Assembly: GCA_020852815.1 (NCBI GenBank)
Contig: JADZAN010000024.1
Location: 62,001-126,000 of the forward strand
Source: Gemmatimonadaceae bacterium
Lineage (GTDB): Bacteria; Gemmatimonadota; Gemmatimonadetes; Gemmatimonadales; Gemmatimonadaceae
Length of the DNA: 64,000 nucleotides
Direction: 5' to 3'
This document shows, in pieces, positions 2,523 through 64,000 of this stretch (its first letter is position 1; each line of letters starts with the position of its first letter). The notes under the pieces are model-generated. The model did not search any database. It was not told the DNA's origin and saw only the letters and a program-made list of their open reading frames with translations. A program made the translations under genes and the position numbers.

Positions 2523-4211
2523 CTAGTCGAGCGAGGCGACGACCTGCGCGCCGGCGTCCAGCAGGAGGCGCATGGCCTTGTCGTAGTCGTCGTGCACGGC
2601 GAGGACGACCAGGTCGCCCTCGCGCATCTCGCCCATCGCCAGTTGCAACGCCTCCTCCTCGGAGTCGGCGCGGCGCAGCGTCGACTCGCGCGCCCCCTCG
2701 CCCAGGAAGGCCTGCGCCAGGCGCTCGCGCGTCTCGAACGCCGCCGTCCCGCGGCGATACCTGGGCATCTCCTTGAGGATCACGACCTCCGGCTCCTCGC
2801 ACCACACCGCCGCCGCCAGCTCCACCAGGGCATGCTCGTCGCGATCGCCCGCCTGCCCCACGACCACCAGGCGGCGTCGCGCGAAAATCGGCGACAGCGC
2901 CTCCCAGATCGCGTTCCACCCGTCGGGGTTGTGCACGAAATCGACCACGACGCGCGCCCCGCGATAGCGCAGGAGCGAGAGCCGCCCGGGATTGTCCTCC
3001 GGGCGCTCGCCAAAGCGGTGCGCCACGGCACGTATGTGCGCCGGCGCGACTCCCATCGCCAGCGCCGCCGCGCTCGCGGCCAGGAGGTTGGCAATGTTGT
3101 GCATCGCCGAGCCGCCCAGCGTCATCGGCATGTCGGGGGCCATGCCTAACGGGATCTCGCCGTCGGGGGTGAGGATGAGCATTTCCCCCTCGCGATGAAC
3201 GCACGCCGTCCCGCCACGCGCCACGTGCGGCAGGACCACCGGGTTGCGCACGCTGAGCGCAAAGAGCGTGACGCGATGCGACAGCGCGCCCGGTCGCGCC
3301 ATGCGTCCCCTGAGCACCTCATCGTCGGCGTTGAGGACGAGCGTCCCCTGGGGAACCAGGGCGCGCGTGACGACGAGCTTGACGTCGGCCAGTCGCTCCA
3401 AAGTGTGCACGCCGTACTCGCCCATGTGGTCGGCGGTGATGCGCGTGACTACAGCGACGTTGCAGCGATCGATCGCCAGCCCGCGCCGCAACAGGCCACC
3501 GCGCGCCGTCTCCAGCACCGCGGCGCTCACCCGACGGTCGCGCAGGACCATGCGCGCCCCCACCGGCCCCGTGTAGTCGCCATGATCGACCAGCGCACCG
3601 TCGCACCAGACGCCGTCTGTCGAGGTGAGTCCCGCCACCTGCCCCGCCTCGCGCAGCATGGCCGCCAGGAGCCGCGTGGTCGTGGTCTTCCCGTTGGAAC
3701 CGGTGATGAGGGCGACCGGGATGTCGTGCACCTGCGCCCAGTCGATGACCGATGGCTCGGGGATGGCGCGCGCCGGAAAGGTCACGCTCCCGGCTCCGCC
3801 ACCAATCGACGCCGAGTCGTCATCGAAGGTGAAGGTGAGCCCGCGCGCGCGCGCCTCCCGCTGCAGCTGCACGAGCGCATGGTTGCGCTCGTGCTGCTGG
3901 TGCACCTTGAGGCGCGCTACCAGATCGCGTCGGTCGGGGGCCGGGCGGCCGTCGACGATCGACTCGGCAACAGCAAAGGCCTGCTCGTTCACCTCGGTGG
4001 CGGTGAGGAGGGCGTCGATGGGGGCGGCCAGAAAGGCATGCCCCCCGCCGGGGTACGGGCGAGCGTACACCTCGGGGCGCTCCCAGCCGAGGTGGTCGGC
4101 GAGGATGCGAACCTCCGTGCGCCACGCCAGGAGGAGCGCCGGGGCCTCGTCGTTGCCGCACTGGATGTCGAGCGCCGCCCCTTCCCGCTGGGAGAAGAGG
4201 TTGGGCCCCAT
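2523..4211 (-). CDS. Mur-ligase-like protein related to the C-terminal half of cyanophycin synthetase
   Basis: 562 aa. Residues 1-165 form an N-terminal region without recognisable ATP-grasp motifs. The P-loop GSNGKTTTTR lies at about 171-180. Further on it has TGPVGARMVL and ETARGGLLRRGL, which match the cyanophycin synthetase Mur-type domain, and VLNADD. It follows cphA on the same strand after 79 bp, so probably one operon. Mur-type domains of CphA add Arg to the beta-carboxylate of the poly-Asp backbone. A stand-alone ligase lacking the ATP-grasp domain could modify or prime the polymer, but the substrate cannot be read from sequence. It is not MurC/D/E/F by context. Confidence 0.75.
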   Translation of the reverse strand: MGPNLFSQREGAALDIQCGNDEAPALLLAWRTEVRILADHLGWERPEVYARPYPGGGHAFLAAPIDALLTATEVNEQAFAVAESIVDGRPAPDRRDLVARLKVHQQHERNHALVQLQREARARGLTFTFDDDSASIGGGAGSVTFPARAIPEPSVIDWAQVHDIPVALITGSNGKTTTTRLLAAMLREAGQVAGLTSTDGVWCDGALVDHGDYTGPVGARMVLRDRRVSAAVLETARGGLLRRGLAIDRCNVAVVTRITADHMGEYGVHTLERLADVKLVVTRALVPQGTLVLNADDEVLRGRMARPGALSHRVTLFALSVRNPVVLPHVARGGTACVHREGEMLILTPDGEIPLGMAPDMPMTLGGSAMHNIANLLAASAAALAMGVAPAHIRAVAHRFGERPEDNPGRLSLLRYRGARVVVDFVHNPDGWNAIWEALSPIFARRRLVVVGQAGDRDEHALVELAAAVWCEEPEVVILKEMPRYRRGTAAFETRERLAQAFLGEGARESTLRRADSEEEALQLAMGEMREGDLVVLAVHDDYDKAMRLLLDAGAQVVASLD

Positions 4212-10987: not shown

Positions 10988-12268
10988 ATGGCGACGGGCG
11001 AATCGCATCGTCGGACTCCGCCGATGAATCGGCGCGTGGGCGATCGGCTCACGCCGCGCGAACTCTCGGCCGTGGGATACGGCGGCAAGTATCGCGTCTG
11101 CGTGATTGTCGGGACGCGCCCCGAAGCCATCAAGATGGCGCCGGTCATCCTCGAACTCTCGCAGCACCGCCAGGTGATCGAGACGATGGTGGTCACCACC
11201 GCGCAGCATCGCGAGATGCTGTCGCAGGCGCTCGATGCCTTCGGGATCAAGCCGCACGTCGACCTCGGGCTCATGTCGGCCAAGCAGGCGCTGGCCGACT
11301 TCACCGCCCGCGCGATGCTGGCGCTCTCGTCGTGCTTCTCCGAGCTGCGCCCAGACCTTGTCCTGGTGCAGGGCGACACGACCACGGTGCTCTGCGCCGC
11401 GCTCGCCGCGCACTACCTGGGCATTCCGGTGGGGCACGTCGAGGCGGGGCTGCGCTCGGGAAACCTGCGTAACCCGTTCCCCGAGGAACTCAATCGCCGC
11501 CTGGCCTCGGTGGTGGCCGACCTGCACTTTGCCCCGACGGACACGGCACGCCAGAACCTCCTGCGCGAGGGGGTCCCTGACGACCGCATCACCGTCACCG
11601 GCAACACGATCGTCGACGCGCTGCGGCGCATTCCCCGCAAGGCGCAGTTTGACGATGCGCGCCTCAACGACCTCCCATGGGAGAAGCGGCGCTTCGTCCT
11701 GTGCACCATGCACCGGCGTGAGAACCTGGGCGAGCCGCTGGCCAACATCTGCCGCGCGCTGGGCGAGCTGGCCACGATGCACACCGACACGCACTTCGTC
11801 TTCCCGGTGCACCTCAACCCGCACGTGCGCGACGTGGTGTTCGACGAGCTGTCGGGGATGCCTCGCGTCGAGCTCCTGGACCCGTTAGGCTACTCGGACC
11901 TGCTCGAACTGCTGCGGCGGTGCGAGTTCGCGATGACGGACTCCGGGGGAATCCAGGAAGAATGCCCGTCGCTGGGAAAGCCGGTCCTGATCCTGCGCAA
12001 GAACACCGAACGCCCCGAAGTGGTGGAGTCGGGGTTCGGGCGCGTGGTGGGGACCGACACGCTGGCGATCGTCGATGCGGCGACGCTCCTCCTCGACGAC
12101 TATCGCGAGATCGAGAAGATGACCTCGGGCGACAATCCCTTTGGCGATGGACTCGCCGCGCAACGCATCGTACAGACGCTGATGCGCCGCGCGCCGCGGC
12201 ATGCCGGGGGACACCCGGTCCCCGAGGGGCCGGCGCTCCTCCCGACGCGGCGAGTCGTGGAGCCATGA
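10988..12268 (+). CDS. wecB: UDP-N-acetylglucosamine 2-epimerase (non-hydrolysing)
   Basis: 426 aa. Family motifs in order: VIVGTRPEAIKMAPVILEL, VTTAQHREM, VQGDTTTVL, GHVEAGLRSG, TMHRRENLG, DSGGIQEE, RKNTERPE. It interconverts UDP-GlcNAc and UDP-ManNAc in the cytosol. It is first of five genes with ATGA or longer overlaps, so its product probably feeds the glycosyltransferase at 14098. About 30 extra N-terminal residues precede the usual start region, so a later start (for example the M at 11024) is possible. Confidence 0.93.
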   Translation: MATGESHRRTPPMNRRVGDRLTPRELSAVGYGGKYRVCVIVGTRPEAIKMAPVILELSQHRQVIETMVVTTAQHREMLSQALDAFGIKPHVDLGLMSAKQALADFTARAMLALSSCFSELRPDLVLVQGDTTTVLCAALAAHYLGIPVGHVEAGLRSGNLRNPFPEELNRRLASVVADLHFAPTDTARQNLLREGVPDDRITVTGNTIVDALRRIPRKAQFDDARLNDLPWEKRRFVLCTMHRRENLGEPLANICRALGELATMHTDTHFVFPVHLNPHVRDVVFDELSGMPRVELLDPLGYSDLLELLRRCEFAMTDSGGIQEECPSLGKPVLILRKNTERPEVVESGFGRVVGTDTLAIVDAATLLLDDYREIEKMTSGDNPFGDGLAAQRIVQTLMRRAPRHAGGHPVPEGPALLPTRRVVEP

Positions 12269-13176
12269 CATCCCGACGCGGCCGCCGCACGGAGCGGCCG
12301 CGCCCGGAGCCGCCTCGCACGGAGCCGCCGCGCACGGCCGCGATGCGGCGCCTCGCCGCACGAGCCTTCGCCGCGCTGCTCGCCGCAGTCATGGGAGCGG
12401 CTACACTCCCCGTCTCACGCGCGCACGCGCAGGAGCGCGCCAGCGCCCACGACGGCGCCCGCCCCTTGCTCGACCGGCGCGTCGACCTCTTCGCCGACCG
12501 GCACCAAGTCACGGGCGGCTACGGCGACTGGCGTGGCGTCGGGTTGCGGCTGTCGGTCCCCGTGGGGCAACGCGACACCTGGTTCGCCGAGGCGCTCGAG
12601 CGCCGCGCCTTCCGCGACGAGGGGACCTACCTCAGCGTTGCCAACCAACACGTCTGGAGTGAGCGCGTCTACACCTATGCAAGTGTGGGGGGCGGCTCGG
12701 GCGACTTCGTCCTCCCCGACCTGCGCCTCGACGCATCGCTCTCCACCAAGTGGGGGGCGCGACGCGCGCTCGTGACCACGCTCGGCACCACGCTCATCGA
12801 CGCCAAGCGCGGCTACCGCGACGTGGGGGGCTTTGCGGCGCTCACGGGCTACCTGTCGCCGTGGGCGGTGGCCGAGGGCGGGGTGCGTGTCACGCGCAGC
12901 ACGCCGGGCGACGTGGACGCCGCCAGGGGCAACGGGGCGTTGACGTTAGGCAGCCAGGGGCACACGGTCGTCGTCGTACGCGGCTCGTCGGGGCGCGAGG
13001 GGTACCAGTTGCTGGGGGCGGGGGCGGCGGTGCGGCGCTTCTCGAGCCAGGAGGGGAGCGCATCGGTGCGGCAGTGGGTGGGGGCGCACGGGGGGGTGCT
13101 GGTGCAAGGCGAGCACTATCGCAATCCGTTCTACCGTCGCACGGGGGTGACGCTTGGCGTCTTTGCCCACTGGTAG
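12265..13176 (+). CDS. YaiO-like outer-membrane beta-barrel protein
   Basis: 303 aa. ATGA overlap with wecB. A long basic N-region (Arg/Pro/Glu repeats), then a hydrophobic segment and a cleavage region at RAHAQE. The mature part alternates short beta strands ending in the C-terminal GVTLGVFAHW; a terminal Trp/Phe strand is typical of outer-membrane barrels. The central pattern, with WAVAEGGVRVTRS and HTVVVVRG-like strands, resembles YaiO-family barrels, which occur next to polysaccharide synthesis genes. It may export or anchor the polymer; this is inference. Confidence 0.65.
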   Translation: MTSRRGRRTERPRPEPPRTEPPRTAAMRRLAARAFAALLAAVMGAATLPVSRAHAQERASAHDGARPLLDRRVDLFADRHQVTGGYGDWRGVGLRLSVPVGQRDTWFAEALERRAFRDEGTYLSVANQHVWSERVYTYASVGGGSGDFVLPDLRLDASLSTKWGARRALVTTLGTTLIDAKRGYRDVGGFAALTGYLSPWAVAEGGVRVTRSTPGDVDAARGNGALTLGSQGHTVVVVRGSSGREGYQLLGAGAAVRRFSSQEGSASVRQWVGAHGGVLVQGEHYRNPFYRRTGVTLGVFAHW

Positions 13177-14101
13177 CCGCGGCGCCGCGCGCACGCCGCG
13201 CGACCTGGCCGCGCTCCCGCACACGGGCGATGCGCGTGCGCGCCTGCTGGGCGAGCTGCGCGTGCGCGGGTCGCGCGGCGGGATCATCGGCGCGCATCGT
13301 GCCATGGTCACCGGGCGCCTCACGCCGTCGCGCGTGTCCAGCATGGTGGTCATCCCCGCGTTGCTCGCCGCGCTGGTCACCGTCCTCCTTCGCCCGTTAG
13401 GCGAGGCGTGGCGCCTGGCGTTCGAGCGCCTGGCGCCGCTGCTGGGGATGGACGAGCCCATCGGCTTCGCCGCCGTCTCGCTGGGCGACTACCTCACCTT
13501 CTACGTCCCGCACGTCACCACGCCGGCGCCGCTCCCCGGGGTGTGGCACTTCTGGGTCGTGGGAGGGATCTGCGCGCTGGTGCTCGCGGCGTCGTTGCTC
13601 CTGCCGGATCGCTTCACGCCGCTGCGCTACTACCTGCGCTTTGCAACGCTGGTGCAGCTGTCGAGCATCCTCTACTTCGCCATCAGGCCCGGCTTCTTTC
13701 CGTACGCACTGCCGCAGTACACGCTCGGCTTCCTCCAGGCGGGGTGCGCCGTCCTCGTGCTCATCCCGCTCGTCCTCGGGCTGACCTTCTTCCCGTTCGA
13801 CATCGCGCTGTGGCGCAAGGTGCTGCTCACCGTGCTCACGGTGGGGCACATCGCCGTCCTCCTCCCGCTGCAGGTGCTGCTGCACGCCTACGTGGTGCAG
13901 CACCTCTCGCTTCTCGCGCTCCCCACGATGTTCTTCCTGTGGGGGATGCTGCTGGAGATCTTCGTCTTCGTCGGCTTCTACGGCTGGGGGATGAGCTGGC
14001 CCGATGCGCCACGCGCCACGCCGTGGCTGCGTGAGCGCGGCGACGGACGCGTGCGCCCGACCAGCGGCGCGCACACCGCACAGCGCGGCGGGGCGCGATG
14101 A
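13154..14101 (+). CDS. Polytopic membrane protein of the exopolysaccharide operon
   Basis: 315 aa as drawn from a TTG that overlaps the previous gene by 23 bp. A start near 13301 (MVTGRLTPSRVSSM) would fit the hydrophobicity better. About seven membrane segments follow (for example SSMVVIPALLAALVTVLL, VWHFWVVGGICALVLAAS, MFFLWGMLLEIFVFVGF). No catalytic motif was recognised. It sits between the barrel and the synthase gene (ATGA overlap with the latter), so it may be a partner of the synthase in the inner membrane. Confidence 0.6.
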   Translation: MASLPTGSRGAARTPRDLAALPHTGDARARLLGELRVRGSRGGIIGAHRAMVTGRLTPSRVSSMVVIPALLAALVTVLLRPLGEAWRLAFERLAPLLGMDEPIGFAAVSLGDYLTFYVPHVTTPAPLPGVWHFWVVGGICALVLAASLLLPDRFTPLRYYLRFATLVQLSSILYFAIRPGFFPYALPQYTLGFLQAGCAVLVLIPLVLGLTFFPFDIALWRKVLLTVLTVGHIAVLLPLQVLLHAYVVQHLSLLALPTMFFLWGMLLEIFVFVGFYGWGMSWPDAPRATPWLRERGDGRVRPTSGAHTAQRGGAR

Positions 14102-15411
14102 TCGTCACGATCCTCGTCGCGCTCCTGTGGTCGGTGGTCGCGGTGCTGGCGATCTACACCGTGCGCCACTACGTCTTCACCTTCAATCGCCTGTTTGGGC
14201 GCCACCGGCAGCCGTACGTCGACATCACCGTTGCCGACTGGCCGCCGGTCACGGTCTTCATCCCATGCCATAACGAGGCGCAGGTCATCCACGGGTCGAT
14301 CGATGCGCTCCTGGCCGCCGACTACCCGCGCGACCGCCTGACGATCATCCCGATCGACGATCGCTCGACCGACACCACCGGGGCAATCCTGCGCGACTAC
14401 GCGTCACGACACCCGGAGGTCATCAGGCCGGTGTGGCGCACTGGGGGGACGCCGGGAAAGGCAGCGGCGCTGGCCGAGGCGAGTGCGCGCGTGGGGAGCG
14501 AGGTCCACCTCGTCTTCGACGCCGACTACATCCCCGGCCCCAAGCTCCTCAAGCAGCTCGTGGCCCCCTTCTTCGATCCCGAGGTGGGAGCGGTGATGGG
14601 GCGCGTGGTGCCGCAGAACGTGAAGCGCTCGCTCCTCACGCGCCTCCTCGACCTCGAGCGCGCGGGCGGCTACCAGGTGGACCAGCAGGCGCGCATGAAC
14701 CTGGGACTGGTGCCGCAGTACGGCGGCACGGTGGGCGGCGTGCGTCGCGAGGCGCTGTCGAGCGTTGGGGGGTGGCGCACCGACACCCTGGCCGAGGACA
14801 CCGACATGACCTTCCGCCTGCTCCTGCGCGGGTGGGAGGTGGTGTACCAGAACCGCTCCGAGTGCTACGAGGAAGTACCCGAGCACTGGCCGACCCGCAT
14901 TCGCCAGATCCGGCGCTGGACGCACGGGCACAACCAGGCGCTGCGGCGCTACGTGAATCGCGTGCTGGCTCGGCGCGGGAACGTGTCGTGGCTGCAGGCG
15001 CTCGACGGCACGCTGCTGTTAGGGGTCTTCGCGGTGGGGCCCATCCTTCTCGCGGGTTGGATCCTTGCCCTGGTCCTCTATTACCTGGGCTACCAGCCGT
15101 CCTCGGGGATCCTGATGGTCCTCGTCATCTCGGCGTTCAGCACGCTGGGGAACTTCGCGGCCTTCTTCGAGGTGGCAACGGCCACGCGGCTCGACGCGTC
15201 GCGCAACCGCGTGCGCCTCCTCCCGTTTCTCTTCTTCGGCTTCCTGGTCTCGCTCATGGCGGTGTCGCAGGAGACGCTGCTGCAGTTCGTGGGACGCGGG
15301 CTGGGATGGCGCAGCAACAAGCGCTGGGACAAGACGGAGCGCTACCGTCAGGCGCAAGACGGCGGCAACGGCGGCGGCAGCGGCCAGTTGGGCCATGGCG
15401 GGGCAGCATGA
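14098..15411 (+). CDS. Processive family-2 glycosyltransferase (cellulose/PNAG-synthase type)
   Basis: 437 aa. N-terminal membrane helix, then a GT2 domain: VTVFIPCHNEAQVI, IDDRSTD, DADY (DxD), AEDTDMTFRL and the QIRRW polymerase motif. Three to four C-terminal membrane helices follow. This is the layout of PgaC, cellulose and hyaluronan synthases, which polymerise and extrude a beta-linked chain. The wecB gene in the same operon suggests a ManNAc- or GlcNAc-containing chain. No deacetylase (PgaB-like) is present nearby. It overlaps both neighbours by ATGA, so expression is coupled. Confidence 0.85.
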   Translation: MIVTILVALLWSVVAVLAIYTVRHYVFTFNRLFGRHRQPYVDITVADWPPVTVFIPCHNEAQVIHGSIDALLAADYPRDRLTIIPIDDRSTDTTGAILRDYASRHPEVIRPVWRTGGTPGKAAALAEASARVGSEVHLVFDADYIPGPKLLKQLVAPFFDPEVGAVMGRVVPQNVKRSLLTRLLDLERAGGYQVDQQARMNLGLVPQYGGTVGGVRREALSSVGGWRTDTLAEDTDMTFRLLLRGWEVVYQNRSECYEEVPEHWPTRIRQIRRWTHGHNQALRRYVNRVLARRGNVSWLQALDGTLLLGVFAVGPILLAGWILALVLYYLGYQPSSGILMVLVISAFSTLGNFAAFFEVATATRLDASRNRVRLLPFLFFGFLVSLMAVSQETLLQFVGRGLGWRSNKRWDKTERYRQAQDGGNGGGSGQLGHGGAA

Positions 15412-16520
15412 GCGTCGTCGCCTTCCTCGCACTGTTCGCGGTGGCGGTGGCGTGGTTCCTCCTCCCCCTCCTCCCCGCGCTGCGCGAGTTGCTGTCACCC
15501 ACCGACGCCGAGCCGCTGACGGCCGTTGGGCAGGACGCGGGCGACCTCACGGTCTTCGCCGATGGCTTTCGCGACTACCTCGCGCGCCAGCTGCCCACCG
15601 CCCCCTCCTCCGCCCCCTCCACCGACCCCTCCACCGCCGCGTCACGCGTGGGGACGCTCGTGGACGGGACCCCCTTCGTGCAGCTGGCGGAGAGCGCCGA
15701 GCTGCTGCGCGAAGTGGCGCTGACCGACGGCTCGATCCCGCGCGTCGTCATCGCCGAGCGCGCGCTCACCCTCCCCGGCGGCGAGACCTTCCCGCTCGAG
15801 GTCCTCGCGCGTGGCCCGCTGCGCGCGGGGAAGGGGACAATCTTCCGGGCGCTCCTTGGCATGGATGACCTCACGCTCGGCGCCGGCTCCGAGATCCTGC
15901 GCTGGGTGCACGCCGATGGCACGTTGCGGCTGGCGGAAGGGTGCACGGTGCACGGGCGCGCCTCCGCCACCGCACGCATCCTCCTCGGACCCGACGTTGC
16001 CTTCTCGCGCATCCGCGCCGCGCACATCGCCGCTGTCCCCGACCCGACCGCAGACGACGCGCTCGCACTGCTCGACGACGCTCCGTCTCTCCCTCCCGTC
16101 ATCAGCGGCACCGCCAGGCTCCCCGCCGGGACGTTGCGCGAACGCGGCTACACGCGCGTCCCCGGCGACCTCACCATCCCCGCCGGCGGAACCGTGACCG
16201 GGGCGCTCGTCGTGCAAGGGCGACTCTCTGTGGGCGAAGGAGCGCGCGTTGGCGGGAGCGTGAAGGTGCACGGCGAGTGCACGCTCGCCGCCGACGCGGT
16301 GATCGACGGGACGCTGGTGTCGCGCCGCGGGGTCACGCTCGGCGCGCGCTGCCTGGTGCAGGGCTCGATCGTGGCCGAGGGCGACGTCGTGGTGGGAAGC
16401 GGGAGCTGGGTCGGGTCGCCATCGACCCCGGCCTCCATCGCCGCCGTGCGCGTGACGATCCGCAGCGGGGCGCAGGTGTTCGGGGCTATCTCGGCACGTT
16501 TGGGCGCCCAGACCGGCTGA
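15408..16520 (+). CDS. Membrane-anchored bactofilin-like (polymer-forming) protein
   Basis: 370 aa. One N-terminal membrane helix (SVVAFLALFAVAVAWFLLPL), a linker rich in Pro/Ser/Thr, then Gly-rich repeats with the periodicity of a right-handed beta-helix: TIPAGGTVTGALVVQGRL, SVGEGARVGGSVKVHG, VIDGTLVSRRGVTLG, CLVQGSIVAEGDVVVGSG. Bactofilins and 'polymer-forming cytoskeletal' proteins show this pattern. It is last in the five-gene operon, overlapping the synthase gene by ATGA. A scaffold for positioning the polysaccharide machinery is a reasonable guess. Confidence 0.65.
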   Translation: MSVVAFLALFAVAVAWFLLPLLPALRELLSPTDAEPLTAVGQDAGDLTVFADGFRDYLARQLPTAPSSAPSTDPSTAASRVGTLVDGTPFVQLAESAELLREVALTDGSIPRVVIAERALTLPGGETFPLEVLARGPLRAGKGTIFRALLGMDDLTLGAGSEILRWVHADGTLRLAEGCTVHGRASATARILLGPDVAFSRIRAAHIAAVPDPTADDALALLDDAPSLPPVISGTARLPAGTLRERGYTRVPGDLTIPAGGTVTGALVVQGRLSVGEGARVGGSVKVHGECTLAADAVIDGTLVSRRGVTLGARCLVQGSIVAEGDVVVGSGSWVGSPSTPASIAAVRVTIRSGAQVFGAISARLGAQTG

Positions 16521-16870
16521 TTCTTCCGCTTTTGGCGACTTCGCCTTCTGGATCGTAGACCGGGCTCGGCGTTGTCGCCGGGCGGGGAGAGCGAGAGTCG
16601 GAAGATCCGACCACCAGTCAGCGCCCGATCCGCATCGCGATCTCACGAGTCAAGGCTTTGCAGGGAAACAACTTCCACGGCTCGGCTCACCGGGAATGTC
16701 TGGCGCGCGTGCCCGTGGGGGACCCGGCACGGATTGGGGGGATACCGCTGGCACCCCCGGGCACACGGCTTGCCTACCTTGTTTGTGACCTTTCTCACGA
16801 TTTCTGCACACCGCGCGCGAGGGTGGGCGATGTAGCGTGAGATGGCTTCAAGTCTCAGACGGAGTGAGTG
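16521..16870 (+). promoter_or_regulatory. Intergenic leader with sigma-54-type promoter for the PEP-CTERM gene
   Basis: This 350-bp gap holds no gene. GGGCAC at 16759-16764 and TTGCC at 16770-16774 are separated by 5 bp, matching the -24/-12 layout of sigma-54 promoters (TGGCAC-N5-TTGCW) apart from G for T at the first position. Transcription would start near 16785, about 85 nt before the gene. In characterised bacteria PEP-CTERM genes are controlled by RpoN with the PrsK/PrsR pair, so the site fits its context. Confidence 0.6.
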
Positions 16871-17734
16871 ATGAGCACGATGACGCGCATCCTGCGGGGT
16901 GCCTTGGCGAGCGCTGTCCTGGTTGGGGTTCTCCCGGCCGGGGCGCAGGCGCAGCGCACCGTGTACCCTGGTGGGCCATGGATCTCGGATGTTCGTGGCT
17001 CCGGTGGATCGGCCGCGATCACGGGGAACAACCCGCGCAACGGCAACGGATCGTTGGAGCTGGCAGTAAGCGGCGACCTGCGGGACTGGGGGTGGTTCAA
17101 CCTCTTCTCGGGCGATCCGGCGACGACGCAGGGGTGGGGGCAGCTGTCGCAGTTGACGCAGGTGGGCTTCGACTGGTATCGCGTGGCGATGGGGCCCACG
17201 GGCGATGCACCGTGGCAGGCGCAATCGCCGGCGCTTCGCCTGTACGTGCGCAGCGGCCCGATTGGCGCGCCGGTGTACAGTGAGCTGGTGTGGGAACGCT
17301 GGTACACGCTGGCGCAGCCCGCGCCCACCAATCAGTGGATCTCCGAGAACGCGACCAACCAAATGTTCTGGCGCTTCGTGACGGGGCAGGGATACACGAT
17401 CGACGATTGCAGCAGCCCCGCCACCATCACGCCCGGCATCCCGGTCAAGACCACGTCGCCGTCGGCGTGGGGGAACGGGAACAACTGCTACGCGTTAGGC
17501 GATGCGGTCGTCTACGGCATCGGGGTGGGGCTCGGCAGCAACTGGCCGCATGCCTACAAGGCCTTTGCCGACAACGTCACGCTCGGCTTCAACAACGACC
17601 CCGTGCTCGCGGTGCACGATAACTTCGAGCTCCAGTCGAGTACGACCCCCGAGCCGGCGACGATGCTCCTGCTCGGCAGCGGATTGGCCGGGATCGGCGG
17701 GGCGATGGCGCGTCGTCGCCGGAAGGGCGTGTAG
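16871..17734 (+). CDS. PEP-CTERM sorting-domain protein
   Basis: 287 aa. A signal peptide (LRGALASAVLVGVLPAGAQAQ) precedes a beta-rich exported domain. The C-terminus is a complete PEP-CTERM signal: PEPATMLLLGSGLAGIGG, then a short hydrophobic remainder and RRRRKG. Exosortase cleaves such tails and these proteins go with exopolysaccharide loci. Here the gene directly follows the five-gene polysaccharide operon. GGAG lies just upstream of the ATG; a GTG three bases earlier is the alternative. No exosortase gene is in the window. Confidence 0.9.
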   Translation: MSTMTRILRGALASAVLVGVLPAGAQAQRTVYPGGPWISDVRGSGGSAAITGNNPRNGNGSLELAVSGDLRDWGWFNLFSGDPATTQGWGQLSQLTQVGFDWYRVAMGPTGDAPWQAQSPALRLYVRSGPIGAPVYSELVWERWYTLAQPAPTNQWISENATNQMFWRFVTGQGYTIDDCSSPATITPGIPVKTTSPSAWGNGNNCYALGDAVVYGIGVGLGSNWPHAYKAFADNVTLGFNNDPVLAVHDNFELQSSTTPEPATMLLLGSGLAGIGGAMARRRRKGV

Positions 17735-17844: not shown

Positions 17845-17934
17845 GCGTCGCGTTCGAGAGGACGAAGGACGCGCTTGCGATGAACGCTCGCTGGAGCGAG
17901 GATGCGCGCATCGTCATCGAACGAGGGGTTCGCC

Positions 17935-19221
17935 ATGTCCATTGCACCAGTCGCGTTGCACCGCGCCGCCATGCACCGCGCCGCCATGCACCGCGCCGCC
18001 ATGCATCGCGCCGCCATGCGCGCCCTCGCGCTCCTCCTGACTAGCGCATTGTCGATGGCGCACGCGCGGCCCGCGTCGGCGCAGGAGACGGTCCCGTCGC
18101 TGTCGCTTGGCTTTGGCGTGGACACGGTGAGCGCCGACGTGCGCGGGATCGTGCGTACGCTGCGCGACTACTTCGCGCTCCCGCAACCGTCGCGCACGCC
18201 CACGCCACTGTGGAACGGTGAAGAGCAGCGCGGGCGGCGTGTGTACGATGCGACGGGCGAGGCCTACCAGGGATTCCCGGCCACGATCATCGAGGTCGTT
18301 CCGGAATCGCCCGACAATGACCTGTACGTGGTGCGTACGCTCTTCGCGCGCTACGACTCGGCGAGTCGCGCCATTCGCCCGCTCGCGGTCCAGCGCCTCT
18401 ACGCGCGCCGCACCGGCGATCGCTGGACGCTGGAGAGTGCGTTGCCGCACCTCACCGCGCGGTGGAGCACGCTGCGCGTGGGACGCATCACCTTTCATCG
18501 TCCACCGGGTGAGCGGATCGACCGGGCGCGTGCACGCCGTACAGCGCAGCTCTTCGATGACCTGCAGCTTCGCTTCGCGATCGCCGACACGTCGACGCTC
18601 GACTACTACGCCTGCGGCTCGACGCGCGAGATGTACCGCATCGTGGGACTCGACTTCATGGTCGCTCCCTCGGGGCCGGGTACCGGGCGCGGTGGACGCG
18701 CGAGCGCGGAGCAACACCTCCTGCTGGCCGGCGATTCGTTGCAGGGCGAGGCGTACATCCACGAACTCGCGCACATCGCCTTCTGGCCCACGCTTCCCGC
18801 AGGCGGACGACATCACATGGTAGAGGAAGGGGTGGCGACATGGATCGGCGGTTCGCGCGGTGCATCGATCGATTCGCTCGCCGTGATCCTCGCGCGCTAT
18901 CAAGCGACGCACCCCGGCGTGACGCTGCGCATGCTGGTGGACGGTGACGTCGCCGGCGTGTGGGGGCAGCCGGAGACCGATGCGATGTACGCCACCGCGG
19001 GAGTGATTGCGGCTGCGATCCACGAGCGCGGCGGCGATTCGGGGATCCGGCGCTACCTGGGCGTCACGGACGACAGCGCCTCGTTCTGGCGCGAAATGCC
19101 GGCGCTCCTGGGAGTTTCCGGGGACTCGCTCGAGGGGTGGTGGCGGGGCGAGGCCGCCCGCCGCGTGGCGCGTCGCCCCCTTCCCGCAGCGCCCAGTCGC
19201 CGTGGCGCACGATCGCGTTAG
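17935..19221 (+). CDS. Secreted zinc metalloprotease-like protein (gluzincin type)
   Basis: 428 aa. N-terminus MSIAPVALHR followed by four HRAAM units, then a hydrophobic signal (RALALLLTSALSMAHA) with cleavage near ASAQE. A zinc motif HELAHIAFW at about residue 278 is followed by EEGVATWIGG, the third zinc ligand pattern of peptidase MA-like gluzincins. Thus it is probably an active secreted peptidase; substrate unknown. GAGGGG lies 9 nt upstream of the chosen ATG. Each of the next repeats also brings an in-frame ATG, so several starts are possible. It ends before a strong terminator at 19289. Confidence 0.7.
   Translation: MSIAPVALHRAAMHRAAMHRAAMHRAAMRALALLLTSALSMAHARPASAQETVPSLSLGFGVDTVSADVRGIVRTLRDYFALPQPSRTPTPLWNGEEQRGRRVYDATGEAYQGFPATIIEVVPESPDNDLYVVRTLFARYDSASRAIRPLAVQRLYARRTGDRWTLESALPHLTARWSTLRVGRITFHRPPGERIDRARARRTAQLFDDLQLRFAIADTSTLDYYACGSTREMYRIVGLDFMVAPSGPGTGRGGRASAEQHLLLAGDSLQGEAYIHELAHIAFWPTLPAGGRHHMVEEGVATWIGGSRGASIDSLAVILARYQATHPGVTLRMLVDGDVAGVWGQPETDAMYATAGVIAAAIHERGGDSGIRRYLGVTDDSASFWREMPALLGVSGDSLEGWWRGEAARRVARRPLPAAPSRRGARSR
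17956..18015 (+). repeat. Four 15-bp tandem repeats carrying start codons
   Basis: Units of the form (A/T)TGCACCGCGCCGCC repeat four times in frame at the 5' end of the metalloprotease gene. Each encodes MHRAA or LHRAA. Copy-number change would keep the frame but alter the n-region of the signal peptide and the number of ATGs. Confidence 0.9.
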
Positions 19222-61930: not shown

Positions 61931-64000
61931 CTAAAAGCTCCCCCCCAGCAGTACGGCGTTGGCAAAGATCGGCAACATCCCGCGATAGAGATCGCGATAG
62001 ACCGGGTCGTGCGCAAAGGCAATCACCCGCCCGCGCCCGGCGCGCTCCGTCCACAGGTATGGCGTGAGCGCCACCTTGGCCGGCATCTCCGGCCAGAAGT
62101 ACCCCGACAGGCGCACCCGGTTCTCGGCGGCAAAGCGAATCACCGCCTCGCCCGCGCTGAGATCCTTGGGGACGGTGAGGATGCGATCGGAGTTGGCGAA
62201 GACCGGGATCTCCCCCGCGTCCACGCCGGCCATGAGCGGCGACAGCGTGTCGAAGGTCGCGCGCGCCAGCACCCCCGGCAGCCCCGCCGGCAACGGCGCC
62301 CCGCCTGACGAGTCGGCGCGCGTGGAGTCGCGCTTGATGCGCGTGCGCACGAGCCCAACGCGCTCCTGCGCCAGCCACGCCGTAGCCCCCTCCAGCGTGA
62401 TGAGCACGCCACCGCCACGCACCCACTCCGCCAACCGCGAGCGCCCCGCATCGCCCAGCGCACGATCGAACGCCGCCCCCTGCACGGACGGGATCACGAT
62501 CACCGTGAAGCGATTGATGTCGCCACCGGCCAGGAAAGCCGCATCCACGAGCGTGCTTGGGTAGCCGATGCGCTGGTCGAGCGCATACCAGGCGAAGCCG
62601 AAGGCGTTCCCCTGGATGGGGGGCGCGCCGACGAGTGCCACGCGCGGCGCCGGCACCGGCACCACCGAGTTGGAGCCCAGGTCGGTCCCCTCGTCCACGC
62701 CGGCAGATGCAATGGGGACAACCCGCGCCCCCGCCTCGGCGGCGCGCGCCGCGACCACGTCGTGCACGTCGCCTCGGTTCACCGCCACGCGCACCACAAA
62801 GGCGCCGCGCGCGAATCGTGCCCCTCCGGACGTGAAGGACTTGGGCGCGAACCACACACGCACCGAATCGCGCAGCAGCGTGGCCAGCAACCGCACGCTC
62901 GCCTCGCTCCCCGGCTCGAAGGCGTAGGCGTAGCGGGCACGCGCCACGGCTGGCATGGCCTCGCGCGCCAGCGTCGTTACCGGCGTTGCGCCTGGCGGCA
63001 CGCTGCGCACCCACCAGGCGCGCACACGGTACGCCATCGGCATCGACCAGGCGGTGATGTCATAGAAGCGATTGCGCTGCCCCGTGCGCCGCAACTCCAG
63101 CTCGAACTTGATGAACGCCGAGTCGAGCTCCGCGTCCGGCTCGAGGAGCGCCTTGGCCAGGTGCCCCTGCGGCTGCGAAAAGTCCACGACGTAGCTCCCC
63201 GACTTCACGCGCGCCGGGCCGCTGGCCAGCGCGACATACGGCGTTCCGTCGGCAATGGTCACGTCACTCGTCAGGCGCGACACCTCGATGCCATTGTCGC
63301 GCAGCTTGGCCACCAGCGAGTCGGCGCGCCCCTGCGCATCGCGCTCGAAGACGACCGCGCGCATGGGCCCACGCGCATGCTTCGCGATTGCCTCGGCGCG
63401 CGAGGCCGCGTAGTCGCGCACCAGCTCCGTGCGCCGGCGCGCCGACGTGCGCACCGTCGCCCACTCGGCCGTGTAGTGCTCCCACGCCGCCTGGCGCAAC
63501 GTGCGCAGCATCCCGTCGTTGCGCCTGACGGAACCGCCTGACGACGACGCCGACTCGAACAGCATCCCGATGCTCCCCGTCAGCATCGGCCACCCCTCGC
63601 CGTAGCCGGGATAGAACGAGTCGTACCCCTCGCGCCGGAAGTACGACCATCCGTGCTCGTCGAACGCCGCACCGTGCGCCGCCGCGAAAATGTCGAACCA
63701 CTTGGCAAGGTGCGCCGGGTTGTTCTTGTTGTCCGGCTCGCGCGGCGGCGCGAAGTAGAACGACGCGCTCGACCCCTGCTCGTGCAGGTCGACCGCCACG
63801 TGCGGCCACCACTGCATGAACGTCCGCACGCGCCCGCGCGACTCGGGATGCGACTGGATGAACCAGTCACGATTGAGGTCGAAGGAGTAGTGCGACGTTC
63901 GCGGTCCCGGCCACGAACCGGCGTTGTTGAGCGCCCCGGGTTCGCTCGCCACTCCCTGCGCGCTCCACGTGCGCTCGACGTCGTGCGTGTGTCGCTCGCG
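61931..64000 (-). CDS. M14-family zinc carboxypeptidase (N-terminus outside window)
   Basis: 690 codons seen, open at the window edge. DLNRDWFIQSHPESRG and VAVDLHEQGSS are M14-like motifs (Arg, His ligand), and FYPGYGEGWPMLTGSIGMLF continues the catalytic domain. The C-terminal ~300 residues look like a glutamine-amidotransferase-type fold often attached to these proteins (RFTVIVIPSVQGAAFDRALG; WVRGGGVLITLEGATAW). The first zinc motif lies outside the window. Probably exported. Confidence 0.85.
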   Translation of the reverse strand, partial: RERHTHDVERTWSAQGVASEPGALNNAGSWPGPRTSHYSFDLNRDWFIQSHPESRGRVRTFMQWWPHVAVDLHEQGSSASFYFAPPREPDNKNNPAHLAKWFDIFAAAHGAAFDEHGWSYFRREGYDSFYPGYGEGWPMLTGSIGMLFESASSSGGSVRRNDGMLRTLRQAAWEHYTAEWATVRTSARRRTELVRDYAASRAEAIAKHARGPMRAVVFERDAQGRADSLVAKLRDNGIEVSRLTSDVTIADGTPYVALASGPARVKSGSYVVDFSQPQGHLAKALLEPDAELDSAFIKFELELRRTGQRNRFYDITAWSMPMAYRVRAWWVRSVPPGATPVTTLAREAMPAVARARYAYAFEPGSEASVRLLATLLRDSVRVWFAPKSFTSGGARFARGAFVVRVAVNRGDVHDVVAARAAEAGARVVPIASAGVDEGTDLGSNSVVPVPAPRVALVGAPPIQGNAFGFAWYALDQRIGYPSTLVDAAFLAGGDINRFTVIVIPSVQGAAFDRALGDAGRSRLAEWVRGGGVLITLEGATAWLAQERVGLVRTRIKRDSTRADSSGGAPLPAGLPGVLARATFDTLSPLMAGVDAGEIPVFANSDRILTVPKDLSAGEAVIRFAAENRVRLSGYFWPEMPAKVALTPYLWTERAGRGRVIAFAHDPVYRDLYRGMLPIFANAVLLGGSF

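Follow-up and report, generated by a model that had tools for sequence, protein, structure and literature searches.

The stretch of DNA analysed here, hereafter the window, is 64,000 nucleotides long and covers positions 62001 to 126000 of contig C24 in an assembly of 5.38 Mb and 47 contigs that is 100% complete. The family is Gemmatimonadaceae, phylum Gemmatimonadota; G018, another genome of this family, matches plasmid NZ_CP007129 of Gemmatirosa kalamazoonensis with 100% identity along 3,001 bases. It contains a gene for a PEP-CTERM protein, hereafter the window gene, and the features of this gene and of its leader are the following.

16521 to 16870, forward strand: leader of the window gene, about 350 nt long, the frame upstream of it stopping at 16520
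16759 to 16774, forward strand: putative sigma-54-type -24/-12 promoter GGGCACACGGCTTGCC, recognised from the sequence, 12.2 bits
16784 to 16799, without strand: CRP/FNR-like palindrome TGTGACCTTTCTCACG, one mismatch to GTGAC-N4-GTCAC, covering the predicted start of transcription
16785, forward strand: predicted start of transcription, about 12 nt after the C of the -12 element, as derived from sigma-54 promoter geometry
16861 to 16864, forward strand: probable ribosome-binding site GGAG in the sequence, 6 nt 5' of the ATG at 16871
16871 to 17734, forward strand: PEP-CTERM protein gene, with signal peptide, C-terminal sorting motif and PF07589 match
17642 to 17719, forward strand: PEP-CTERM sorting motif, residues 259-284 counted from the GTG at 16868, the PF07589 match

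The reading frame of the window gene is open from a GTG at 16868, and the ATG at 16871 is its likely start. The protein is of the type that serves as exosortase substrate, with a C-terminal PEP motif, a membrane stretch and a basic tail, and its match to PF07589 scores 28.3 bits against a cut-off of 20.7. One exosortase was identified in the genome (209 bits). The region 5' of the window gene (10988-16520) is a polysaccharide neighbourhood that includes the UDP-GlcNAc 2-epimerase gene wecB and a family-2 glycosyltransferase gene; it also encodes a protein with a bactofilin match below the cut-off, and a similar protein is encoded upstream in G001, a genome of the same genus. On the other side, near the start of the next frame (17902-19221), a 15-bp unit (HRAAM codons) was seen by eye in four tandem copies at 17958-18017, the last with one difference, and this is possibly a misplaced start or a stretch prone to slippage.

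An earlier, sequence-only reading of this DNA had claimed a sigma-54-type promoter ahead of the PEP-CTERM gene, with the invariant GG and GC at the correct spacing of 10 bp. The spacing was borne out: the GG of GGGCACACGGCTTGCC lies at 16760-16761 and the GC at 16772-16773, leaving a gap of 10 nt. Compared with the consensus TGGCACR-N4-TTGCW, the box has two mismatches (the first T is G and the last W is C), both of which are outside the GG/GC core, and 96 nt separate its 3' end from the ATG of the window gene. Transcription from sigma-54 promoters starts about 12 nt downstream of the C of the -12 element. Taken alone, a match of this quality to the sigma-54 core is to be expected by chance in 64 kb. 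The exact pattern GGCAC-N5-TTGC was observed once in the window, with 0.88 expected, and six sites on the two strands reach at least 12 bits, compared to 12.2 bits for the window box, by a sigma-54 matrix that underlies all box scores given here and follows the published consensus, not the published motif 2.

The window box stands above chance because its core is identical at 14 of 14 bases in G001, because boxes precede 15 of 17 further homologues, and because a second PEP-CTERM gene of the same genome, on C2, has a box as well. The G001 orthologue shares 78% identity with the window protein, and the 14 identical bases of the two leaders are those of GGCACACGGCTTGC. Outside the stretch from the box to the palindrome, the two leaders are 44% identical (279 aligned positions) and the next longest identical run has a length of 9. 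The elements TGTGAC ... CACGAT, 10-11 nt past the box, are also common to both. The genome encodes the rpoN gene that the reading had pointed to (TIGR02395, 420 bits with a cut-off of 277; RpoN box ARRTVAKYR). The core conservation in G001, the presence of rpoN and the boxes in the family support the claim of a sigma-54-type promoter ahead of the PEP-CTERM gene.

The window protein was searched for in 179 genomes of the family and was present in 18, including the window genome; it was not found in two scans that covered named genomes. The box of the G013 orthologue (63%) scores 9.9 bits, with C changed to T at one core place and the spacing kept, and those of the homologues in G018 (50%) and G017 (47%) score 13.0 and 9.0 bits, respectively. 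In these three genomes the box begins 96-109 nt before the gene start. Boxes of at least 9.0 bits were found before 15 of the 17 further homologues, compared to 0 of 17 on the antisense strand, where the 17 are 19 loci minus L274 and L278, which are weak pieces of one gene of G139. The two homologues that did not reach 9.0 bits are L268, whose gene was already part of the earlier set, and L276, a fragment that lacks a signal peptide. A PEP-CTERM-like gene (L041) in G002, the third genome of the genus, had no convincing box, and the best site (8.5 bits) was inside the upstream gene. The gene in G013 (L260; G013:C5:194866-195549) is a clear orthologue for which no Pfam PEP-CTERM match was listed at E 0.005, and thus the PEP-CTERM counts obtained with that model may be too low.

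Three genes of the window genome are above the Pfam cut-off for PEP-CTERM, namely the window gene, one gene on C2 and one on C3. The leader of the C2 gene carries the box GGGCACGCCTCCTGCA with 12.5 bits. The C3 gene lies close behind the exosortase operon and lacks a box of its own (best site 5.1 bits), and a weak site of 8.3 bits is all that the 500 nt spanning the start of that exosortase gene contain. Both PEP-CTERM genes of this genome that have their own leader are therefore preceded by a box above 12 bits, while a box of at least 12 bits was present in only 3 of 199 control leaders. Just past the box of the C2 leader (G000:C2 near 178,700; L004, reverse strand) we noticed by eye a 14-bp inverted repeat, GCGCACATCGGCGG / CCGCCGATGTGCGC.

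PEP-CTERM matches were found in 43 of the 118 family genomes, with up to 49 in a single genome. From the best-scoring matches listed, 89 loci were taken (L072 was left out), and 85 of them provided usable leaders, as L116 contained no gene and three had no usable start or leader; removal of one duplicate left 84. Boxes of at least 10 bits occurred in 30 of the 85 leaders in sense and in 3 in antisense orientation, compared to 3 of 85 coding stretches and 3.1 expected from shuffles. When the threshold was raised to at least 14 bits, the corresponding numbers were 11, 0, 0 and 0.25. Control leaders of other genes had boxes of at least 10 bits in 7 of 199 cases in sense and 10 of 199 in antisense orientation. 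The box was enriched in the PEP-CTERM genes (30 of 84 distinct leaders versus 7 of 199 others; Fisher 4e-12), in a comparison where the control leaders begin at the start of the longest frame and the choice of start by signal peptide was applied to the PEP-CTERM genes only. The genus g23 (Gemmatimonas) had boxes of at least 8 bits in 27 of 46 leaders; no box of this strength was present in the 13 leaders from g16 (0 of 8), g14 (0 of 2), g31 (0 of 2) and g17 (0 of 1). Other PEP-CTERM leaders had been named in the reading as the place to look for the same -24/-12 motif, and it is present before the second PEP-CTERM gene (C2) and before many PEP-CTERM genes of the family.

The palindrome TGTGACCTTTCTCACG over the predicted start site resembles CRP/FNR sites by consensus only. 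Counterparts after the box were found in G001 (two mismatches), in G013 (GTGAC-GCGG-GTCAC, none) and at the C2 gene (two), at varying distances. With at most two mismatches, GTGAC-N4-GTCAC follows the box in 3 of 43 leaders and in 1 of 17 later homologues, while an equally long stretch upstream has it in 4 of the 43, and it was therefore rejected as a general partner of the box. The combination of the box with TGTGAC-N6-CAC gave five matches across 118 genomes, and a backward control pattern gave two. Three of the five are the leaders from which the pattern was derived (window gene, C2 gene and G001 orthologue) and therefore prove nothing. The other two are in G007, syntenic with the C2 gene, and in G019, inside a reading frame. 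At the window gene, the palindrome probably adds a second control, which would most simply be repression by blocking initiation.

The G007 locus (L163; G007:C8:20914-23945) has the box and the TGTGAC palindrome at 1501-1532, and the PEP-CTERM gene is absent between the flanking genes. As judged by eye, its upstream patatin-like gene and its downstream membrane gene are similar to those at C2, and a terminator-like hairpin lies about 160 nt further on. Because this hairpin follows the box, a short transcript or a small RNA is possible there.

Another palindrome, TGTnGC-N6-GCnACA, is present in about half of the PEP-CTERM leaders of the family and mostly precedes the box by 70-200 nt. Counting paired words 5' of the boxes gave GTTG/TGTC ... 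GACA/AACA pairs, and a palindromic motif search of the leaders gave gTGTnGCg-N4-cGCnACAc. This search reached a likelihood of 191 in the leaders and a higher one, 218, in coding stretches of the same paralogous genes (shuffles 33-53), and so we relied instead on validation across genera, mismatch counts and distances. When the motif was learned from random seeds in the 46 leaders of the Gemmatimonas genus only, matches of at least 12 bits were present in 20 of the 39 leaders from other genera, compared to none in 39 coding stretches and an average of 0.6 in shuffles. In the region 40-160 nt ahead of the box, 19 of 43 leaders have the core with at most one mismatch, compared to 0 of 43 coding stretches and 0.13 from shuffles, and 26 of 43 have it with at most two mismatches (1 coding stretch; 3.4 from shuffles). 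In 25 of 32 strong pairs, the 3' edge of the palindrome precedes the box by 78-121 nt, which is the classical position of an enhancer. The distances were more scattered among 25 pairs from other genera and later homologues, of which ten were at 78-121 nt and ten at 157-199 nt, and two were out of place, at -60 and 16 nt.

The leader of the window gene (16521-16870) contains no recognisable TGTnGC-N6-GCnACA, the best score being 1.4 bits. There is a site with two mismatches at 16573-16590, a quality for which the background rate is 0.36 per 500 nt. The homologue in G017 has both elements 83 nt apart, with a palindrome of 17.0 bits, and the G013 orthologue has TGTGGC-N6-GCCACA 135 nt upstream, a core without mismatch that scores only 5.2 bits by the matrix. 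These palindromes indicate that the family of the window gene belongs to the palindrome regulon elsewhere. At the window gene itself, the enhancer may be missing or too decayed to be seen.

Thirteen full sigma-54 enhancer-binding proteins are encoded in the window genome. One of them, the C36 regulator (C36:130995), consists of a receiver, a sigma-54 activation domain and a Fis-type HTH, and its best NCBIfam match is AtoC, with 378.7 bits against a cut-off of 714. The next gene encodes a histidine kinase in the window genome and is kinase-like, as judged by eye, in four of six other genomes. In seven genomes, the window genome among them, the activator gene of the C36 group is oriented divergently to a gene of about 810-860 codons. 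Pfam shows this gene to be Wzc-like in the window genome (AAA_31 and CbiA above the cut-off, GNVR and Wzz just below); in the other six it was assigned by place and size only.

The 500 nt before the C36-group gene contained 26 palindrome-like matches (at most two mismatches) in nine genomes, compared to a shuffle mean of 2.7 (maximum 9), with two pairs of the 26 overlapping (G027 and G006), the first codons of the regulator included in the stretches and G025 unscored. These regions had played no part in finding the motif. Considered singly, the counts of seven of the nine regions were attained in no more than 5 of 100 shuffles; those of G005 and G013 were not above the shuffles (29 and 7 of 100 reached them). 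Four palindrome-like matches precede the regulator in the window genome, the best with 11-15 bits. The recognition helix, NMSKAARLAxIDRTTLYRLMEKHG, was nearly identical in the ten genomes compared. In a comparison of 132 activators, the group was found in the window genome and in nine of ten other genomes examined, G021 being the exception. As it is thus present in 10 of 11 genomes, including genomes scored as poor in PEP-CTERM genes, its presence or absence gives no support for a role as activator; the PEP-poor class of this phylogenetic profile is also impure, because G013 has an orthologue of the window gene. The palindromes before the regulator, the kept recognition helix and the Wzc-like and kinase neighbours lead us to propose a C36-type regulator, an NtrC-type protein linked to exopolysaccharide, as the probable activator of the regulon.

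Palindrome copies also occur in G006, a genome without a Pfam PEP-CTERM match. Its locus L239 (G006:C11:38500-43500) has a perfect palindrome upstream of the exopolysaccharide-linked regulator (position 3867) and, at another place in the locus, a copy with one mismatch (position 1968). Because this genome has no PEP-CTERM match, the regulon marked by the palindrome may chiefly be one of exopolysaccharide genes.

It is possible that one of the 12 other enhancer-binding proteins activates the window promoter and that the C36-type regulator serves the palindrome genes only. The window leader without a palindrome and the number of full enhancer-binding proteins in the genome would agree with this, and we take it as a serious option, short of an even chance, since the homologues in G017 and G013 carry the box together with the palindrome.

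The box might also be a chance match, with a sigma-70 or ECF promoter reading the gene and another factor binding the conserved site, and the one match expected in 64 kb, the window leader without an enhancer and the conservation of the downstream palindrome could be cited for it. This is improbable, however, because the conserved bases are those that sigma-54 reads and their spacing is kept, in G001 and also in G013 (one C to T), and because the box is enriched in the family. A chance match was rejected by the conservation and the family counts, not by the match itself. A consensus scan found no sigma-70 promoter at the position of the box, and that candidate was rejected as well.

The sequence-only reading had further suggested that the circuit of RpoN with PrsR may extend to this lineage. 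The RpoN part of this suggestion is supported by the box, rpoN and the enrichment in the family; the PrsR part is not. Had the proteobacterial PrsK/PrsR circuit itself spread to Gemmatimonadaceae, the sigma-54 box before PEP-CTERM genes would be accounted for, and several enhancer-binding proteins do match the PrsR model (TIGR02915) below its cut-off. However, all 13 activators of the window genome are below it (best 391.5 versus 502.6 bits), and none of the 118 family genomes had a protein above it among the 12 best first-look candidates scored per genome (best 428.6 bits). PrsK (TIGR02916), for which the reading had also proposed a search, was not found above the cut-off of 300 bits in the window genome, where the best of 70 candidates scored 107.2 bits. 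None of 43 leaders contains TTTACA in the region 20-130 nt ahead of the box, compared to 0.76 expected, a small expectation that makes the zero weak, and it is absent from window positions 16401-16760, where the test covered the hexamer and motif 1 has 17 nt. A different enhancer is found instead, and by sequence the palindrome of Gemmatimonadaceae and the proteobacterial motif ending in TTTACA differ. Control by PrsK/PrsR was rejected on the cut-offs, for PrsR in the 118 genomes and for PrsK in the window genome, and we regard a spread of that circuit as very unlikely. It appears that the sigma-54 principle operates in this lineage with another activator and another enhancer.

That GGGCA-N7-TGCCT is the terminator hairpin of the upstream gene is hardly credible and was rejected, because the site that a consensus scan calls terminator-like has a five-pair stem, a poor T tail and an outer pairing that is lost in G001, and such sites number 2 in the scanned 1.45 kb, compared to 0.8 expected.

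We have good confidence in the following explanation as a whole. RNA polymerase with RpoN would transcribe the PEP-CTERM gene (16871-17734) from the box at 16759-16774, as a member of a PEP-CTERM sigma-54 regulon that spans several genera of Gemmatimonadaceae. The NtrC-type regulator encoded with a histidine kinase beside the Wzc-like gene most likely binds TGTnGC-N6-GCnACA and, once bound about 70-200 nt upstream, would drive the formation of the open complex, so that the export of sorted surface proteins would be tied to exopolysaccharide synthesis. The palindrome at the start site of the window gene is probably a second control. In this explanation, the window gene is an atypical member of a PrsR-independent sigma-54 regulon that has its own enhancer and is found in several genera of the family.

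Somewhat more boldly, and with odds that we put only modestly in its favour, we suggest that the Gemmatimonadaceae possess a separate PEP-CTERM regulon that does not depend on PrsK/PrsR, in which the exopolysaccharide-linked NtrC-type regulator binds TGTnGC-N6-GCnACA and activates, besides its own exopolysaccharide locus, many PEP-CTERM sigma-54 promoters in each genome. The window gene would be a member that lost the enhancer and gained the start-site palindrome. If this is true, a second phylum would have sigma-54 on PEP-CTERM genes, where the enhancer differs and the activator apparently differs too, and the coupling of sorted surface proteins to exopolysaccharide control by RpoN would either predate PrsR or have arisen twice. 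Gemmatimonas aurantiaca T-27 is a cultured strain, and our results give a defined site in it that can be tested, together with a way to list the surface-protein regulon in Gemmatimonadota.

Among open-licence papers, judged by title and the opening of the abstract, we found none on a PEP-CTERM sigma-54 regulon in Gemmatimonadaceae. A paper on Gemmatimonas reports a light-induced PEP-CTERM gene, and the words promoter, RpoN and CRP are absent from the part of its text available to us (PMC11406998). The C36 regulator is like the NtrC/AtoC-type activators in its receiver, sigma-54 activation domain and Fis-type HTH; unlike them, it is divergent from a Wzc-like gene and reaches no equivalog cut-off. 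The pepA gene of Aquincola tertiaricarbonis has, according to the accessible portion of the report, putative -24 (TGGCAC) and -12 (CTGCTT) motifs, a determined start site and RpoN1-dependent transcription (PMC9850573). The window gene is similar to it as a PEP-CTERM gene with -24/-12 motifs. However, that organism is a proteobacterium with prsK and prsR and was studied experimentally (PMC9850573, same portion), whereas the window gene is described from sequence evidence in a genome without PrsK/PrsR above the cut-offs.

The closest known system is that of PrsK/PrsR/PrsT, for which Haft et al. (2006) described a motif 1 and a sigma-54 motif 2 before PEP-CTERM genes. In the available text of that paper (PMC1569441), the proteobacterial motif 1 comprises 17 nt, ends in TTTACA and is on average 62.8 nt from motif 2; the motifs were found only in Proteobacteria, and many PEP-CTERM genes within and outside Proteobacteria have leaders of another class. 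Compared with what this text describes, the regulon proposed here is alike in the sigma-54 box before PEP-CTERM genes, the long leaders and the second upstream motif, and also in an NtrC-type regulator that is paired with a kinase near exopolysaccharide genes. It differs from the system in that text in having no PrsR or PrsK above the cut-offs, in TGTnGC-N6-GCnACA in place of the TTTACA motif, and in its occurrence in Gemmatimonadota.
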